A DNA stretch of 64,000 bases. It comes from Blautia sp. GTDB taxonomy: Bacteria; Bacillota; Clostridia; Lachnospirales; Lachnospiraceae. Shown here in pieces: positions 6,223-31,174 of this stretch; positions within the stretch are counted from its first letter, which is position 1, and every line of letters starts with the position of its first letter. A program made the translations under genes and the position numbers. The notes under the pieces were generated by a model, which was not told the origin of the DNA, did no database searches, and saw only the letters and a program-made list of their open reading frames with translations. The stretch lies in contig JAMPHB010000001.1 of the NCBI GenBank assembly GCA_023663685.1, positions 421,120 to 485,119 of the forward strand. Reading direction: 5' to 3'.

Positions 6223-6966
6223 ATGGTACTTTCAGATGTAATTCAACTGGGAAATCGAATAGACGTAAAGCTGCTTAGGGCAAAGCAGGCGGAGGACAAC
6301 GGCGGGGAGAAGGCCGTTATCTATCAGAGCAGTGTTTCGGATATGCTTTCGGATATGGAGGCAGAGATTACGATGCCCATGCAGGGCGGAAGGATGGTGC
6401 TCTTTCAGATAGGGGCTGTCTGCGATCTGGTATTCTATACAAAGCGGGGGATGTACCATGGGATCGCTACCGTAAAGGGACGCTACAAGAAGGGGAATTT
6501 GTACTTTCTCTCCGTCCAGCTGAAGGAGCTTCCGCAGAAATTCCAGAGGCGGGAGTATTTCCGCATCGATTTTCTGGCGGAGATACAGTATTATCTGATC
6601 ACGGAGAAGACCGCACGGCTGGAGACTACGAACCAGCTTCTGGCGGCTATTCGGGAGCCGGAGAATATGGCCTCCATGCGGATGGGGACGCTGCAGGATA
6701 TCAGCGGAGGCGGCGCGAAATTCCTCTCGGGAGAGATATATGAGAAGGGGAGTTTTCTGCTTTTGCTGGTTCATTTAAACAGCGCATGGCTGGACGAAAC
6801 CTTTTATCTGGTATGCAGGGTTGTGGAGAGCAGCAGGCATCCAACCTTAGAGGATAAGTTCAGCAACCGTGTCCAGTTCATCTACAAGGATCTGCGGGAC
6901 AGGGAAAAGATTGTTCGTTTTGTGTTTGAGGAAGAGCGCAGAATGCGCAAAAAGGAAATCGGGTGA
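6223..6966 (+). CDS. PilZ-domain c-di-GMP binding flagellar brake protein (YcgR-like)
   Basis: The product has 247 residues: an N-terminal YcgR-type beta domain and a C-terminal PilZ domain. The two c-di-GMP contacts are visible, an R-x3-R motif (R-R-E-Y-F-R, about residue 108) and D-x-S-x-x-G (D-I-S-G-G-G, about residue 158). Such proteins slow or steer the motor when c-di-GMP is high. Its place between flhG and cheB in the flagellar operon supports this. Bacillus subtilis has no gene at this position. The gene ends four bases before cheB. Confidence 0.9.
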   Translation: MVLSDVIQLGNRIDVKLLRAKQAEDNGGEKAVIYQSSVSDMLSDMEAEITMPMQGGRMVLFQIGAVCDLVFYTKRGMYHGIATVKGRYKKGNLYFLSVQLKELPQKFQRREYFRIDFLAEIQYYLITEKTARLETTNQLLAAIREPENMASMRMGTLQDISGGGAKFLSGEIYEKGSFLLLLVHLNSAWLDETFYLVCRVVESSRHPTLEDKFSNRVQFIYKDLRDREKIVRFVFEEERRMRKKEIG

Positions 6967-6970
6967 GTAT

Positions 6971-8020
6971 ATGAAGAAAAACATTTTGGTTGTTGATGAT
7001 TCTGCACTCCTGAGAAGGGTTATTTGTGATATAATTAACTCAGATAACAATTTTCAAGCAACAGATTACTGCAGAGACGGTCTTGAGGCCTATGAGAGGC
7101 TCAGGAAGACAACCTACGATGGTGTTGTTCTGGATGTCAACATGCCGAGGATGGACGGTCTGCAATTGCTCGAGCAGCTCAAAAAGGATGGAATCAGGGC
7201 GACCGTTGTGATGGTCAGCACCCTGACAGTGAGGGATGCAGAGGTGACCATTCGGGCGATGGAGCTGGGAGCGGTTGATTTTGTGACCAAGCCCGGCAAC
7301 ATTATCGAAGCCAAGGGTGAGGATTTTAAGCGGCGTCTGCTCTCCGTGCTTACGGCGGTGCTGTCATCCAGGAGTTATGCGCGTACACCGAAGCGGCCGG
7401 AGCCAAAACAGGCGCCCACGAGGCTTAAGGCGACCGGAAAGAATAAGCTGGTTGCGCTTGCCTGCTCCACGGGAGGGCCGAAGGCGCTGCAGAGTGTGAT
7501 TCCATTTCTGCCCAGGAACCTGAATGCTCCGATGGTTCTCGTACAGCATATGCCGGTGGGATTTACAAAGTCCATGGCAGACCGGCTGGACGAGATCAGC
7601 GAGATCGCGGTGAAGGAGGCCGAGGAGGGAGATGTGCTCGAGAAAGGGCATGTGTATATCGCTCCCGGCGGAAAGCACATGGGCGTGGCGAAATGCCCGG
7701 GCGGCGTTCACAAGATTGCACTGAATGATATGCCTGCAATCGGCGGCTTAAAGCCTTGTGCCAATATCACCTACGATTCTCTTTCCGGCACGGGCTACGA
7801 TGAGATCATCTGCGTGGTGCTCACCGGGATGGGTGCGGATGGGACGAACGGGATTCTTTCCCTGGCCCAGCACAAGCCGGTTCATGTGATTGCACAGAAC
7901 GCGCAGACCTGCGTGGTTTATGGGATGCCGAGGGCGATTGCGGAGACCGGGATTGTGGATGAGGTCGTATCTCTGGATGATGTTGCGAAAACGATCACGA
8001 AGAATGTGGGGGTAATGTAG
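6971..8020 (+). CDS. cheB: Chemotaxis protein-glutamate methylesterase CheB
   Basis: CheB removes methyl groups from receptors and deamidates them during adaptation. The N-terminal receiver has an acidic pair (D9, D10) and the phosphoacceptor D55 in V-V-L-D-V-N-M-P. The C-terminal esterase shows the serine (A-C-S-T-G-G-P-K-A), histidine (V-Q-H-M-P-V-G-F-T) and aspartate (L-T-G-M-G-A-D-G) of the catalytic triad. ATG 6971 gives 349 residues, the normal size; an upstream in-frame extension lies inside the preceding gene and is rejected. Confidence 0.96.
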   Translation: MKKNILVVDDSALLRRVICDIINSDNNFQATDYCRDGLEAYERLRKTTYDGVVLDVNMPRMDGLQLLEQLKKDGIRATVVMVSTLTVRDAEVTIRAMELGAVDFVTKPGNIIEAKGEDFKRRLLSVLTAVLSSRSYARTPKRPEPKQAPTRLKATGKNKLVALACSTGGPKALQSVIPFLPRNLNAPMVLVQHMPVGFTKSMADRLDEISEIAVKEAEEGDVLEKGHVYIAPGGKHMGVAKCPGGVHKIALNDMPAIGGLKPCANITYDSLSGTGYDEIICVVLTGMGADGTNGILSLAQHKPVHVIAQNAQTCVVYGMPRAIAETGIVDEVVSLDDVAKTITKNVGVM

Positions 8021-8021
8021 C

Positions 8022-10112
8022 ATGGATGTTAGCCAGTATCTTGAAATTTTTATTGATGAAAGCGCAGAGCACTTACAGACCTTAAGCGACTGCATTATGA
8101 CGCTGGAGAATGAGCCGGACAATAAGGACACGATCAACGAGGTCTTTCGCGCGGCCCACTCCCTAAAGGGTATGGCGGGAACCATGGGATTTAAGCGGAT
8201 GCAGCATCTGACCCATGACATGGAAAATGTGTTTCAGGAGGTCAGGAGCGACAAGCTGTCCGTAGACAGCCCGATGATTGATTTGCTGTTCAAGTGTCTC
8301 GATGCGATCGAGGGCTATCTTGACAACATCAAGGCGAGCTCCGACGAGGGCACCGAAGATAACGAGATGATCATCAAGGAGCTGAACGATGCGATCGCCA
8401 AGGCGAACGGCGAGAGCGGCGGCGAAAGCGCTGCCCCGAAGGAGAATGCGCCTGCCGGAGAGAAGAAGGCGTCAGAGAGCGTCGGGAAGAAGTATCTCGA
8501 AATCGAGCTGAGCGACAGCGAGCGCAGGCTTGTAATGGATACGAAAGAGGGAGGTCAGCACATTTACGGGATGACCATTCAGATCCAGAAGGAGTGCCTG
8601 CTTAAGGCGGCGAGAGCCTTTCTGGTATTCCGGGCGGTGGAGGAGTTCGGGCAGATTCTGGTGTACCGGCCGAGCTCGCAGGATATTGAGGACGAGAAAT
8701 TTGACCTTGATTTCAGCTTTTATATCGCATCGACGGAGAGCTACGACAAGCTGTATGCGGCGGCCAATCATGTCTCGGAGATTGAGCATGTATTCGGCGA
8801 GGAGCTGACAGAGTTTTCCGCTCCTGCGGAGGCGGAGCAGGCGCAGACGACACAGCCTGCAGCGGCGCCCAAGAAGACAGCTGCAGCCAAGGCGGCGGAG
8901 AATAAGACGCAGGCGCAGGCACAGCCCCAGAAGAAGTCGGGCGGAAAGCCTGCGACAAACCGTACAGTCCGGGTGGATATTGAGAAGCTGGATGCACTGA
9001 TGAACCAGGTATCCGAGCTGATCATCGCAAAGAACAGTCTGGTTTCCATCAGCTCTACAGAGGGCGGAAGTTTTGGCAGCCAGAGCTTCCACGAGCAGAT
9101 TGAATATCTGGAGCGCATTACGACCAATCTCCATGAGTCTGTGATGAAGGTTCGAATGGTGCCCATCGAGAGCGTTGTCAACAAGTTCCCGCGTATGATC
9201 CGCGACCTGTCAAGAACGCTGAATAAGAAGATGGAGCTGGTAATGACCGGTGAGGACACCGAGCTTGACCGTACCGTGGTGGATCAGATTGGGGATCCGC
9301 TGCAGCATTTGCTCCGCAATTCCGCAGACCATGGTCTTGAGGATTCGGCTCTCCGTGCACAGCGCGGTAAGCCGGAGACGGGAACCATCTTCCTGAACGC
9401 TTATCAGGAGGGAAATAATGTCATCATTCAGGTAGGCGATGACGGTAACGGAATTGATGTGGAGGCCGTGAGGGCCAAGGCTGTGGAGCGCGGCGCTGTT
9501 ACGGCGGAGCAGGCGGAGTCGATGAGCCAGAAGGAAGTCATCAATCTGCTGTTCCTTCCGAGCTTTTCCATGGCGAAAAAGATTACGGATATCAGCGGCC
9601 GGGGCGTTGGACTGGATGTAGTGAAATCCGGCATTGAGCAGCTGGGCGGCGATGTGGAGGTAAAGACGTCTCTCGGCGAGGGCACGACCTTTACGGTTCG
9701 TCTGCCGCTGACGCTTGCGATTATCCAGGCTCTCATGGTAGAGGTTCGCGATGAGAAATATGCGATTGCCCTTGGTTCGATTGCGAACATTGAGAATATA
9801 CCAATTACGGATATCAAATATGTGCAGGCCAAGGAGGTCATTCACTTAAGAGGCAGCGTCATTCCGCTGGTACGGCTGGATAAGGTGCTGGATATCGAGG
9901 ACCGGGAGGAGGAGCCGGAGAACCTTACCGTCGTGATTGTCAAGAGAGGAGACTCTCAGGTGGGTCTTGTGGTGGATAACCTTATGGGACAGCAGGAAAT
10001 AGTTATCAAGTCGTTAGGAAAATACATAAACGGCAACAAGCTCATCAGCGGGGCGACGATTCTCGGCGATGGCGAGGTGGCACTGATTCTGGATGCCAAC
10101 ACGTTGATGTAA
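8022..10112 (+). CDS. cheA: Chemotaxis histidine kinase CheA
   Basis: CheA is the receptor-coupled kinase that phosphorylates CheY and CheB. The 696-residue protein has a P1 phosphotransfer domain with H46 in A-A-H-S-L-K-G, a P2 response-regulator-binding domain (about residues 155-265), an Ala/Gln-rich linker, a P3 dimerisation helix pair, and a P4 ATPase domain. P4 shows the N box (L-R-N-S-A-D-H-G-L), G1 (G-D-D-G-N-G-I-D) and G2 (G-R-G-V-G-L-D-V-V). A CheW-like P5 domain ends the protein. It starts one base after cheB. Confidence 0.97.
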   Translation: MDVSQYLEIFIDESAEHLQTLSDCIMTLENEPDNKDTINEVFRAAHSLKGMAGTMGFKRMQHLTHDMENVFQEVRSDKLSVDSPMIDLLFKCLDAIEGYLDNIKASSDEGTEDNEMIIKELNDAIAKANGESGGESAAPKENAPAGEKKASESVGKKYLEIELSDSERRLVMDTKEGGQHIYGMTIQIQKECLLKAARAFLVFRAVEEFGQILVYRPSSQDIEDEKFDLDFSFYIASTESYDKLYAAANHVSEIEHVFGEELTEFSAPAEAEQAQTTQPAAAPKKTAAAKAAENKTQAQAQPQKKSGGKPATNRTVRVDIEKLDALMNQVSELIIAKNSLVSISSTEGGSFGSQSFHEQIEYLERITTNLHESVMKVRMVPIESVVNKFPRMIRDLSRTLNKKMELVMTGEDTELDRTVVDQIGDPLQHLLRNSADHGLEDSALRAQRGKPETGTIFLNAYQEGNNVIIQVGDDGNGIDVEAVRAKAVERGAVTAEQAESMSQKEVINLLFLPSFSMAKKITDISGRGVGLDVVKSGIEQLGGDVEVKTSLGEGTTFTVRLPLTLAIIQALMVEVRDEKYAIALGSIANIENIPITDIKYVQAKEVIHLRGSVIPLVRLDKVLDIEDREEEPENLTVVIVKRGDSQVGLVVDNLMGQQEIVIKSLGKYINGNKLISGATILGDGEVALILDANTLM

Positions 10113-10125
10113 CGGGGGTGAAGAC

Positions 10126-10596
10126 ATGGCGGATTTTATGTTAGATACAACAGTTGAGAAAGAGAAGAAGCAGTACATAGTTGTACAGATCGGCAGCGAG
10201 AAGTACGGCATCGATATCGGCTACATCGACAATATCGTGCGGATGCAGAAAATCACAAGAGTGCCGAAGGCGCAGGTGTATTTTCCGGGAATCATTAACC
10301 TCCGCGGCGAGGTGGTTCCGGTTATGAGCATTCGGATTAAGATGGGGCTGGAAAAGGATGTGTTCACGAACACAACAAGAATTATTATCCTGAAAATCAA
10401 GGATCGGGGAATGCTCGGTGTAATTGTGGATGCTGTCTGCGAGGTAGTTACGCTCTCAGGCGAGGAGATTGAACCCTATGATTCCCACAGCAGCCACGGC
10501 AAGGAGGCTTTTATCAGCGGTGTCGGAAAGAAGGGGGACCAGCTGATCTCGCTCCTGGAGCTGAGTGCGATTATTGAAGAAAAGGATAATGGATAG
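10126..10596 (+). CDS. cheW: Chemotaxis coupling protein CheW
   Basis: CheW bridges chemoreceptors and CheA in the polar array. The 156-residue product is one CheW fold; the typical segment V-Y-F-P-G-I-I-N-L-R-G-E-V-V-P-V is clear. The ATG follows a good GGGGGTG box. Its end overlaps possible upstream starts of cheC. Confidence 0.95.
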   Translation: MADFMLDTTVEKEKKQYIVVQIGSEKYGIDIGYIDNIVRMQKITRVPKAQVYFPGIINLRGEVVPVMSIRIKMGLEKDVFTNTTRIIILKIKDRGMLGVIVDAVCEVVTLSGEEIEPYDSHSSHGKEAFISGVGKKGDQLISLLELSAIIEEKDNG

Positions 10597-10606
10597 CGAG
10601 GTGCCT

Positions 10607-11227
10607 ATGGGCGAATTTTCAATGGATAATATTAACGAAATCTATATCGACGTCCTGCGGGAGATCGGTAATGTTGGCGCGGGAAATGCAACGACTTCCC
10701 TCGCCAGTATGCTCAATGAGACGATACAGATGAATGTGCCGAAGGTTGAGCTTATGGATGTGGCGAAGCTGAATACGGCAATCTGTCCGGAAGAAGAAAT
10801 CATAGTGGGAATCTTTTTGGAGGTGACCCATGACATCTCCGGCAGCATGATGTTTTTGATGAAAATGGATTCCGCGCATTATCTGGTCAACCGGCTGATG
10901 GGAAAACCGGAGGACAATATGGAGCCCTTTGATGAGATGGATCTGTCTGCCATGAAGGAGATTGGCAATATTATTGCGGCTTCTTACCTGACGGCACTTG
11001 CGGGTCTCACCAATTTAACGATTGCGCCCTCTATCCCCTATATTGCGGTGGATATGGCAGGCGCGATTTTGTCTGTTCCCGCGATTCAGTTTGGACAGTA
11101 CGGCAACAATGCGCTGCTGATTGAGACTGAGTTCGGGGACGAAGTAATGATCGGAGGATACTTTATTTTAATGCCGGAGGAGGATTCCTATGGAAAAATT
11201 CTGACCTCCCTCGGAATTCAAATTTAG
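10607..11227 (+). CDS. cheC: CheY-P phosphatase CheC
   Basis: CheC dephosphorylates CheY-P and pairs with CheD in adaptation. The two phosphatase-type repeats are present: E-I-G-N-V-G-A-G-N-A near the N-terminus and E-I-G-N-I-I-A-A-S-Y in the second half, each with the Glu and Asn used for catalysis. ATG 10607, behind GCGAGGTG, gives 206 residues, the family length. ATG 10589 (overlapping cheW) and ATG 10622 are alternatives in the same frame. Confidence 0.93.
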   Translation: MGEFSMDNINEIYIDVLREIGNVGAGNATTSLASMLNETIQMNVPKVELMDVAKLNTAICPEEEIIVGIFLEVTHDISGSMMFLMKMDSAHYLVNRLMGKPEDNMEPFDEMDLSAMKEIGNIIAASYLTALAGLTNLTIAPSIPYIAVDMAGAILSVPAIQFGQYGNNALLIETEFGDEVMIGGYFILMPEEDSYGKILTSLGIQI

Positions 11228-11241
11228 GAGATGAACTGACA

Positions 11242-11727
11242 TTGGGAAACGTAATCAAGGTGGGAATGGCAGATTTAAAGGTCGCTCGTTCACCGGATAT
11301 ACTGACGACGCTAGGGCTCGGCTCCTGTATCGGGCTGACGCTGTACGATCCGGTAACCAAGGTCGGAGGACTGGTACATTATATGCTGCCGGACAGCACC
11401 AAGCTAAAGAACAATGAAAATATAGCAAAATTCGGAGATACGGGTATTAGGGAGCTTCTGCGGCAGGTGCAGAGGATTGGAGGAGACCCGAGACGCCTTG
11501 TGGCCAAGATTGCCGGTGGAGCCTGCATGTTTGAGATGAGCGGAAGCTCTGCCATGGGTAATGTCGGGAAGCGCAATGCGGAAGCGGCGAAGATTATCCT
11601 GCGTCAGCTTAAAATTCCGCTGGTCGCAGAGGATACCGGATTGAATTACGGGCGTACCGTGGAGCTGAACTGTATGAATGGAGAGTATCTGATTAAAGCG
11701 GTGGGCAAATTTTCAAAGGTGATATAA
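11242..11727 (+). CDS. cheD: Chemoreceptor glutamine deamidase CheD
   Basis: CheD deamidates receptor glutamines and, bound to CheC, feeds CheY-P level back on the receptors. The 161-residue product shows the catalytic Cys in G-L-G-S-C-I-G and the His in G-G-L-V-H-Y-M-L-P. The start is a TTG at 11242, which gives the usual N-terminus (V-I-K-V-G-M-A-D); an AGGAG box lies about 11 bases upstream. ATG 11266 is a less likely alternative. Confidence 0.94.
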   Translation: MGNVIKVGMADLKVARSPDILTTLGLGSCIGLTLYDPVTKVGGLVHYMLPDSTKLKNNENIAKFGDTGIRELLRQVQRIGGDPRRLVAKIAGGACMFEMSGSSAMGNVGKRNAEAAKIILRQLKIPLVAEDTGLNYGRTVELNCMNGEYLIKAVGKFSKVI

Positions 11728-29162: not shown

Positions 29163-29191
29163 TTGACATTTTGCATAAAAACCTTTAAAAT
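29163..29191 (+). promoter_or_regulatory. Promoter of the hydrogenase-like chemoreceptor gene
   Basis: A consensus TTGACA (29163-29168), a 17-bp spacer and TAAAAT (29186-29191) lie in an AT-rich gap after polC. It looks like a normal vegetative promoter, not a sigma-28 one. Confidence 0.8.
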
Positions 29192-29245: not shown

Positions 29246-31174
29246 ATGAGTATAATCAATGTAGATGTGGAGAAATGTGTCGGCTGTAATGCCTGTGTCC
29301 GTGCCTGCCCGGCGGCGGAGGCCAATGTCGCGCAGCTGGATGAGGACGGGCAGCTGCGGATCAGCATCGACGATGACAAGTGCATCAAGTGCGGAGCCTG
29401 CATACGGGCATGCTCTCACGGAGCCAGAAGCTATCAGGATGATCTGGAGGAGTTTTTGCAGGCCTTAAAGTCGGGGGAGGAGGTTGCAATGATTGCCGCG
29501 CCGTCCATCAAAATCGCCTTTGACGGCAACTGGCGGCACGCGCTCCAGTGGCTCAGGGATCACGGCGTGAAGAAGATTTATGATGTGGGCTATGGCGCGG
29601 ATATCTGTACATGGGCGCATCTGCGCTATCTGCAGGCGCATCCGGGGAGCAAGGTGATCTCCCAGCCTTGCGCGGCGGTTGTCAACTATGTGCAGCGGCA
29701 CAAGCCGGAGCTGATTCCCCGCATGTCGCCGGTGCAGAGCCCGATGATGTGTCTGGCGATTTACATACGGAAGTACCTGGGCTTTAAAGGAAAAATTGCG
29801 GCTATCTCTCCCTGCATTGCCAAGAGCGACGAGTTTCGTGAGACGGGAGTGATCGACTACAACGTCACCATGGAGAGGCTTGAGAAATATTTTCAGGAGG
29901 AGAATGTAGTCCTGCCGAAGGTCAAGATATACAGCGAGTTCGAGTTTGACGAGTATCAGGGTCTGGAGGGGGCGATTTACCCGAAGCCGGGCGGGCTCAT
30001 GCAGAACCTTCTGATTCACGAGCCGAATCTGGAGGTCATTACCTCCGAGGGCACGGAGAAGCTCTACGACGATCTGGATGTGTATCTCGAGCAGGACGAG
30101 CGGTATCTGCCCGATGTGTTTGACGTCCTTAACTGTGAGAACGGCTGTAACGGCGGCCCGGCGGTGGGCGTCAACTATCAGCGCTTTGAGATGAATTCCA
30201 TCATGCACGACGTGCAGGTGTATGCGCATCAGATCCGGGAGAAAAATAAGACGAAAAAGGGAGCGGACAAACAGTTTGCCCAGTTTGACGCGGAGCTTAG
30301 GATGGAGGATTTCCTGCGGAGCTACAAGTCCATGAAGACGCAGGGAGTCAGTGTGTCTGAGAAGGAAATCGAGCAGGCATTTGCTGACCTTGGAAAACAC
30401 ACAGAGACAGAGAGGCATTTCGACTGTCATGCCTGCGGCTACAAGTCCTGCCGGGAGATGGCGATCGCGCTTGCCAAGGGGCTCAACGAGAAGGAGAACT
30501 GTCACCAGTATATGCTGGAGCAGATTCGGAAAGAGCGCCAGAAGGTGGCGGAGGTCAACGAGCAGGTGTCCGGCATGAACCATGAGCTCATGGAGGTATT
30601 TGCAGAGCTGGCGGAGAATATCACGGCGGTGCAGAAGGAGACGGATTTCATTCAGCAGACCGGCGCGCGTAATGCCAATGAGATGAAAAATGTCGTGGAG
30701 CACATGAATGAGCTGAACCATCTGAACCAGAAGATCACGGAGTCCATGACAGATATCAACAGCAGTGTGGCAAAGTACAATGTGATGACCAAAGATGTGG
30801 AGAAGATTGCGGGAGATATCAATCTGCTCTCGCTGAATGCTTCCATTGAGGCGGCAAGAGCCGGTGACGCCGGACGGGGATTTGCAGTGGTAGCCTCCAA
30901 TATCCGCGACCTCTCGGAGAGCTCCAAGCGCTCAGTGGGAAGCGCGAGGGAGAACGATGAGGGAATCCACACCGCAATCTCCGACGTCAATGTGGTGGTG
31001 GAACGGTTCGATTCCACGATCAAGGAGCTTCTGGAAGCAATTGATGCGACCATTGAGGGGACGAACCGCACCTCGGAGAACGGGGACAATATCCGCGCCT
31101 CCATGGAAAAGGTATCCCAGATGACAGAGCGGGTACAGCACGTTCTTGAGGAGACGAGCCGTATCCTGGATTAG
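29246..31174 (+). CDS. Soluble [FeFe]-hydrogenase-like sensor fused to a chemoreceptor signalling domain
   Basis: This 642-residue protein has no membrane segment. In order it has two 4Fe-4S sites (C11, C14, C17, C21 and C46, C49, C52, C56), an iron-hydrogenase large-subunit domain with four H-cluster-type cysteines (C142, C190, C297, C301), a further C-x2-C-x4-C-x16-C iron-sulfur motif (C394-C419), and a methyl-accepting chemotaxis signalling domain. The signalling tip is recognisable as [14 protein letters not shown]. In catalytic hydrogenases a proton-transfer Cys precedes the first H-cluster ligand; here that residue is Pro141. This suggests a sensor of H2 or redox state feeding CheA/CheW, rather than an enzyme. 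The signal is inferred. Confidence 0.85.

Follow-up and report, generated by a model that had tools for sequence, protein, structure and literature searches.

Receptor gene and predicted structure

The stretch of Blautia sp. (Lachnospiraceae) DNA analysed here (the window; 64,000 nucleotides (nt), positions 421,120 to 485,119 of contig JAMPHB010000001.1 in assembly GCA_023663685.1) contains a gene that joins a hydrogenase-like H-domain to the signalling hairpin of a chemoreceptor. The features of this gene and its product are as follows (ORF, open reading frame; Fe-S, iron-sulfur).

29246..31174, + strand: whole gene, H-domain chemoreceptor of 642 amino acids, ATG start (ORF call and Pfam)
29255..29428, + strand: two N-terminal [4Fe-4S] motifs, C11/14/17/21 and C46/49/52/56, residues 4-61 (Pfam Fer4-type domains)
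29480..30160, + strand: H-domain, PF02906 (Fe_hyd_lg_C), residues 79-305 (Pfam, 9.1e-27)
29666..29671, + strand: P141-C142, proline at the proton-relay position (CpI C299) and first H-cluster ligand (alignments)
29813..29824, + strand: C190 to K193, second H-cluster ligand and lysine at the CN-ligand position (CpI K358) (alignments)
30134..30148, + strand: C297 and C301, third and fourth H-cluster ligands (alignments)
30425..30502, + strand: C-terminal Fe-S motif Cx2Cx4Cx16C, made up of C394, C397, C402 and C419 (Pfam FeS and alignment)
30503..31168, + strand: helical hairpin segment, residues 420-641 (AlphaFold2 model)
30806..30913, + strand: signalling hairpin tip, residues 521-556, which we take to be the contact with CheA/CheW (Pfam MCPsignal and tip pattern)

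Pfam also matched FeS (PF04060) at residues 392-419 (6.6e-6) and MCPsignal at residues 495-639 (1.2e-21), and the Fe_hyd_lg_C and MCPsignal matches are both far beyond chance. All eight cysteines of the N-terminal motifs, together with C394, C397, C402 and C419, are invariant in alignments of 18 and 32 sequences. These results confirm the preliminary description of the protein as a single chain carrying three Fe-S motifs, an H-domain and a chemoreceptor tip. The same description had it free of membrane helices, and none was found (highest 19-residue mean hydropathy 1.03). The AlphaFold2 model has a mean pLDDT of 86.3, and its residues 1-363 match solved [FeFe]-hydrogenases in a structural comparison. 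No chemoreceptor was among the matches listed, from which nothing follows as one domain can fill such a list. In the model the hairpin helix begins directly after C419, so that the Fe-S motif is joined straight to the helix.

When aligned with group A/B hydrogenases, C142, C190, C297 and C301 fall on the four H-cluster ligand positions, as had been read from the sequence, and they are invariant in the sets of 18 and 32 sequences. P141 aligns with CpI C299, which bears out the replacement of the proton-relay cysteine by proline, and K193 occupies the place of CpI K358, presumably the CN-ligand lysine. According to PMC10055695, ~43% of sensory sequences have alanine at position 299, 17% have cysteine and ~10% have proline.

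Class assignment and phylogeny

The receptor has the four H-cluster cysteines, the two N-terminal [4Fe-4S] motifs and C-terminal Cx2Cx4Cx16C that are common to groups C and D, and a fused MCPsignal domain. It also has two features of a methyl-accepting chemotaxis protein (MCP), namely a signalling hairpin with a conserved tip, and CheA and CheW in the genome. Judged by architecture and motifs as described, it fits a class already named in print, HydDB group C2, since C2 is described as chemotactic (putative) and MCP-linked. The sensory-receptor idea of the preliminary description therefore stands as far as the architecture goes, but is not new as a concept, as HydDB named C2 in 2016. A passage of that paper lists C2 as 'chemotactic (putative)', with an undetermined role that is perhaps H2 sensing via methyl-accepting chemotaxis proteins (PMC5037454). 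In a study of Clostridium acetogens, C2 was one of the two main subgroups among hits discarded by validation checks (PMC9431212). The phrase 'taxis toward hydrogen' occurs in PMC6864099. Our literature search found no test of the group C2 kind, and no tested H2 chemoreceptor among the papers listed. The protein shares with group C2 an H-domain sensor linked to a methyl-accepting chemotaxis module, for which H2 sensing is proposed; whereas C2 is a sequence class, the link here is a fusion, the tip and its host's CheA genes have been looked at across the kind, and many hosts have no maturases over the cut-off.

Two other assignments were rejected. A catalytic group A/B [FeFe]-hydrogenase is ruled out by P141 and by NCBIfam scores far under the cut-offs (144.8 against 450 for B1, and 103.3 against 405.95 for A), and group D (TamHydS type, with no output domain after the C-terminal cluster) is ruled out by the MCP hairpin. 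As described in PMC8163306, TmHydS (Thermotoga maritima, group C) and TamHydS (Thermoanaerobacter mathranii, group D) share with the receptor the two N-terminal clusters, an H-domain without C299, and the C-terminal Cx2Cx4Cx16C with the same spacing as in groups C and D; M353 and M497 are replaced by S and L in the receptor, as in TamHydS. By published description, they differ in output: where the receptor found here has its chemoreceptor hairpin, TmHydS bears a PAS domain and TamHydS has no output domain.

H-domain sequences (n=83) were placed in a quick tree that has long branches and SH-aLRT as its only measure of support. It separates group A, group B, the PAS-bearing HydS relatives and one long-branch clade of 63 sequences (SH-aLRT 100) that includes the receptor. 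The PAS-bearing HydS relatives lie outside this clade, across a long branch. The proposed comparison with the sensory [FeFe] groups was thus answered in part: the receptor stands apart from groups A and B and from the PAS-bearing HydS relatives, the sets that the comparison covered. The receptor belongs to a set of 12 rows from its own family (SH-aLRT 100), and the named rows are Lachnospiraceae. The partners fused to the sensor in the 63-sequence clade are chemoreceptor hairpins, histidine kinases (L032, L035, L036, L037, L038, L039 and L192), GGDEF-EAL domains (L040, L041, L046 and L051) and coiled coils that have no tip.

Chemotaxis genes and association with CheA

The window also carries a set of chemotaxis genes:

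6869..8020, + strand: CheB, candidate partner (window ORF)
8022..10112, + strand: CheA, candidate partner (window ORF and genome search)
10126..10596, + strand: CheW, candidate partner (window ORF)
10565..11227, + strand: CheC (window ORF)
11242..11727, + strand: CheD (window ORF)

Co-localisation with CheA, which had been put forward as a check, is borne out by this cheB-A-W-C-D set (6869-11727) in the same 64 kb as the receptor. The genome as a whole (G000) has two CheA matches, five CheW-domain matches and 24 chemoreceptor genes over the Pfam cut-off, 23 of which, this receptor included, were caught by the tip pattern. A second chemosensory cluster lies just past the end of the window (G000:C11, ~489-500 kb; L083) and encodes CheA2, CheB, CheR, CheW, a membrane receptor and an HD-domain response regulator; a hybrid kinase in this cluster was named by eye.

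The family was surveyed in 299 genomes, 96 of which had a match at E <= 1e-30. Carriers were defined by one match extending from the H-domain part to at least query residue 590 (n=57). The other 39 of the 96 genomes, with kinase or other fusions, HydS-type proteins or fragments, were dropped; one of these 39 is G029, where no more than a 248-residue piece containing the C-terminal part was matched. CheA was found in 56 of the 57 carriers compared with 8 of the 17 non-carriers tested (Fisher p 2e-6), and the only carrier with no CheA match (G174) is 76% complete. The non-carriers were 17 of 20 listed genomes with no match, three having been dropped at 60-67% completeness; 183 more were unlisted. 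Genomes carrying other fusions were kept separate from these 17, and 2 of 3 contain CheA. The soluble, H-domain-based receptor of the original description is supported: its genome encodes both CheA and CheW, che genes lie in the same window, and this kind of receptor co-occurs with CheA. At one relative's locus (L148 279-2369) CheA is encoded on the opposite strand, some 2.6 kb away from the receptor gene.

Proposed mechanism

We favour, with modest confidence, a cytoplasmic H2/redox chemoreceptor of the group C2 kind that signals to CheA; its stimulus, cofactor, sign and behaviour are predicted. The architecture, the conserved ligands, the predicted fold, the Fe-S-helix join, the presence of CheA and CheW in the genome and the association of the kind with CheA are observed and support this; the H-cluster (backed by the maturase operons of relatives), electron exchange, signalling direction and taxis output are what we infer. 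The N-terminal module of two [4Fe-4S] clusters and H-domain would exchange electrons with ferredoxin or H2, and the state of the H-domain would alter the Fe-S domain (C394-C419) at the base of the long two-arm helical hairpin. The tip of the hairpin would set CheA activity through CheW, and the cell would swim or signal by H2 or redox level.

Taxis toward H2 itself has reportedly been seen in a methanogen. The energy-taxis receptors TlpD (soluble) and Aer (membrane) report the internal energy or redox state to CheA, as proposed here, but they do so from a zinc-binding or FAD sensor and have no H-domain. Regulatory [NiFe]-hydrogenases with HoxJ likewise represent a hydrogenase turned H2 sensor, and differ in having an unrelated metal site and a separate kinase subunit.

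Maturases and the H-cluster

The linkage of receptor and maturase genes in some relatives supports the presence of an H-cluster in these. In G151 (72% complete), where the receptor is the only H-domain protein found, HydE, HydG, HydF and the receptor lie on one strand with a gap of 16 nt between HydF and the receptor. In a Fibrobacterota metagenome-assembled genome (L186), the HydG frame (796.7 bits, cut-off 312.15) begins at the base after the receptor stop and is followed by a frame with a weak Cache-domain match, below the cut-off. HydF is upstream of the receptor on the same strand in L182, with other genes between. The next gene upstream of the receptor in G116, which has no maturase over the cut-off, is a group B hydrogenase 287 nt away.

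Two sets of observations weigh against the favoured mechanism; the first concerns the maturases and the second the tip and adaptation of the hairpin. Among the 57 carriers, HydG, HydF and HydE are over their curated cut-offs in 26, 31 and 30 genomes; all three are present in 26 and some in 6, leaving 25 with none, of which 19 are at least 94% complete. HydF is no more associated with carriers (31/57) than with the rest of the family (128/242; p 0.88). Two of these carriers, G233 (100% complete) and G255 (99%), lack all three maturases, and the receptor is their sole PF02906 match. In the receptor's own genome (82% complete, 31 contigs) HydE, HydF and HydG are all under the cut-off. Its one other H-domain gene, a group B1 hydrogenase, is 56% identical to the group B gene of a genome of the same genus (G292, 99% complete), where that gene stands in a group B-HydF-HydG-HydE operon and the receptor has no match. 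No HydE, HydF or HydG was found around the G000 gene in an 18 kb stretch (frames of at least 110 amino acids). Since G000 is 82% complete and G292 has the operon, the maturases may be absent from this assembly without having been lost.

These observations would fit a receptor whose H-domain holds a [4Fe-4S] cluster with no [2Fe] subcluster and which informs CheA of the state of ferredoxin, of redox state or of damage by O2/NO, with no part played by H2. Eukaryotic Nar1/NARF relatives have a [4Fe-4S] cluster in the H-domain and lack the [2Fe] subcluster. We regard such an Fe-S-only receptor as possible but rather unlikely; the maturase operons of relatives speak against it, as does the pocket itself, which was compared at 25 positions between 15 receptors whose genomes have the full maturase set and 14 whose genomes have no maturase (two fragments, L029 and L049, and the divergent G101 receptor, L050, were left out). 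Every metal ligand and K193 are identical between the two sets, variation being confined to positions 167 (M/L), 188 (one S to T) and 245 (Y/F), and two receptors from genomes with partial maturase sets agree with the same pattern. In L050 a tyrosine replaces the proline, and the four cysteines and the lysine are kept. In all four GGDEF-EAL fusions of the same module, by contrast, the lysine at the CN-ligand position has been lost (R, R, I, M), and the pocket can therefore decay when not needed. These fusions lie at L040 936-4394, L041 768-3353, L046 352-2970 and L051 975-3545, and L046 has lost cysteines as well. In group A-like sequences (L096, L098, L101 and similar), TSCSP replaces TSCCP, which puts a serine at one of the H-cluster ligand positions.

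The lack of maturases extends beyond this receptor, since among near-complete genomes of the family 228 of 245 have H-domain proteins and only 128 of 245 have HydF. Some HydF-less genomes carry canonical group A6 or B hydrogenases. One example (G242; 20 contigs, 94% complete) has no HydE, HydF or HydG over the cut-off, yet has a group A6 hydrogenase over the curated cut-off; its locus L100 796-2565 is an instance of an H-domain protein in a HydF-less near-complete genome. As some maturase-less genomes keep group A/B hydrogenases, an H-cluster may be present even where HydEFG are not. The proposition that missing maturases exclude an H-cluster was rejected as too strong, given these hydrogenases and the conserved ligands. 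A literature search on loss of HydEFG in Lachnospiraceae listed no paper in which that family is named. The H-cluster of the earlier description is thus supported in some relatives only, through maturase operon linkage, and is putative in this protein, which has no maturase over the cut-off in an 82%-complete genome and shares this state with 24 other carriers. A more novel reading, to which we give less than even odds, is that the complete pocket persists in hosts that lack HydE, HydF and HydG: either these Lachnospiraceae would assemble the H-cluster by a new route, or the whole pocket would have been preserved by evolution for a different role, in an H2-independent Fe-S taxis receptor descended from a hydrogenase.

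That the gene is a relic with no present function is very improbable. Maturases are often absent and the gene is a single copy in its own genome, but its frame is open, full-length matches occur in 57 of the 299 family genomes, and every ligand position is kept across relatives of 34-68% identity (32-row alignment); this conservation disfavours a relic.

Tip, arm length and adaptation

The tip of the receptor reads DIN, where 20 of the 22 other chemoreceptors of its genome have xTN, and its C-terminal arm is 104 residues, compared with 153-159 in 18 of the 22 (the rest being 84, 136, 167 and 276). No strict methylation motif (CheR/CheB) was found in the receptor; 19 of 25 other receptor copies have one, counted over overlapping loci in which some appear twice. 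Because of the DIN tip, the short arm and the lack of this motif, the receptor may form an array of its own rather than join the main one, and may not adapt in the usual way.

It is also conceivable, though doubtful and somewhat less probable than the Fe-S-only receptor, that signalling is not to motility but passes through the second chemosensory cluster (the CheA2 set at G000:C11) or a separate cytoplasmic array. The presence of that second set favours this, as do the unusual tip and an arm shorter than in most receptors of the genome. Two CheA matches occur in six of the 11 other carriers most similar in sequence (L004-L014), but five have a single one, so that a second CheA set is not required by the kind.

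Tip state was surveyed in a sample of 50 (49 genomes) from 80 named relatives, half of them tip-bearing by a first pattern. By a second pattern, 24 of the 50 have the tip, all in genomes with CheA, and 26 do not, with CheA in 6 (Fisher p 5e-9); one of these six (L196) counts as tip-bearing under the first pattern, which is the looser one. The tree shows only about two changes of tip state, and an independent-pairs test was powerless (2 pairs, p 1). The link between tip and CheA is therefore a consistent picture and not independent replication. Ruminococcus flavefaciens and its kin have the full sensor and a coiled coil of ~150 residues, and have lost the CheA-binding tip. L170 4947-6695 and other tipless Ruminococcus relatives are mostly in genomes with no CheA.

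Promoter and neighbourhood

Upstream of the receptor gene is one further feature:

29163..29191, + strand: sigma-70-like promoter, TTGACA-17-TAAAAT, 5' of the receptor gene (11/12 matches)

It is rated weak, because 2 such sites occur in the region against 1.6 expected. No sigma-28-type promoter pattern was found in the window. A tblastn search for the neighbourhood (polC, a DUF5050 gene and the next genes) found it solely at the window's own locus among 90 loci compared. Locus L033 (G108) and locus L124 each carry two receptors of different subfamilies in tandem.

Significance

The gene encodes a real, well-formed member of a class named in print, and the unexpected part is an intact pocket decoupled from the maturases. 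New here are the association with CheA, the maturase operon linkage in relatives, the maturase-less carriers with an intact pocket, and the loss of the tip in Ruminococcus relatives. Because pocket and maturases are decoupled, the H-cluster claim becomes a testable question and not a safe inference. The class offers a candidate single-chain H2 chemoreceptor for an in vitro CheA assay. The mismatch between receptor and maturases asks whether an intact H-domain pocket always means an H-cluster, and the answer bears on hydrogenase counts in gut and rumen metagenomes.
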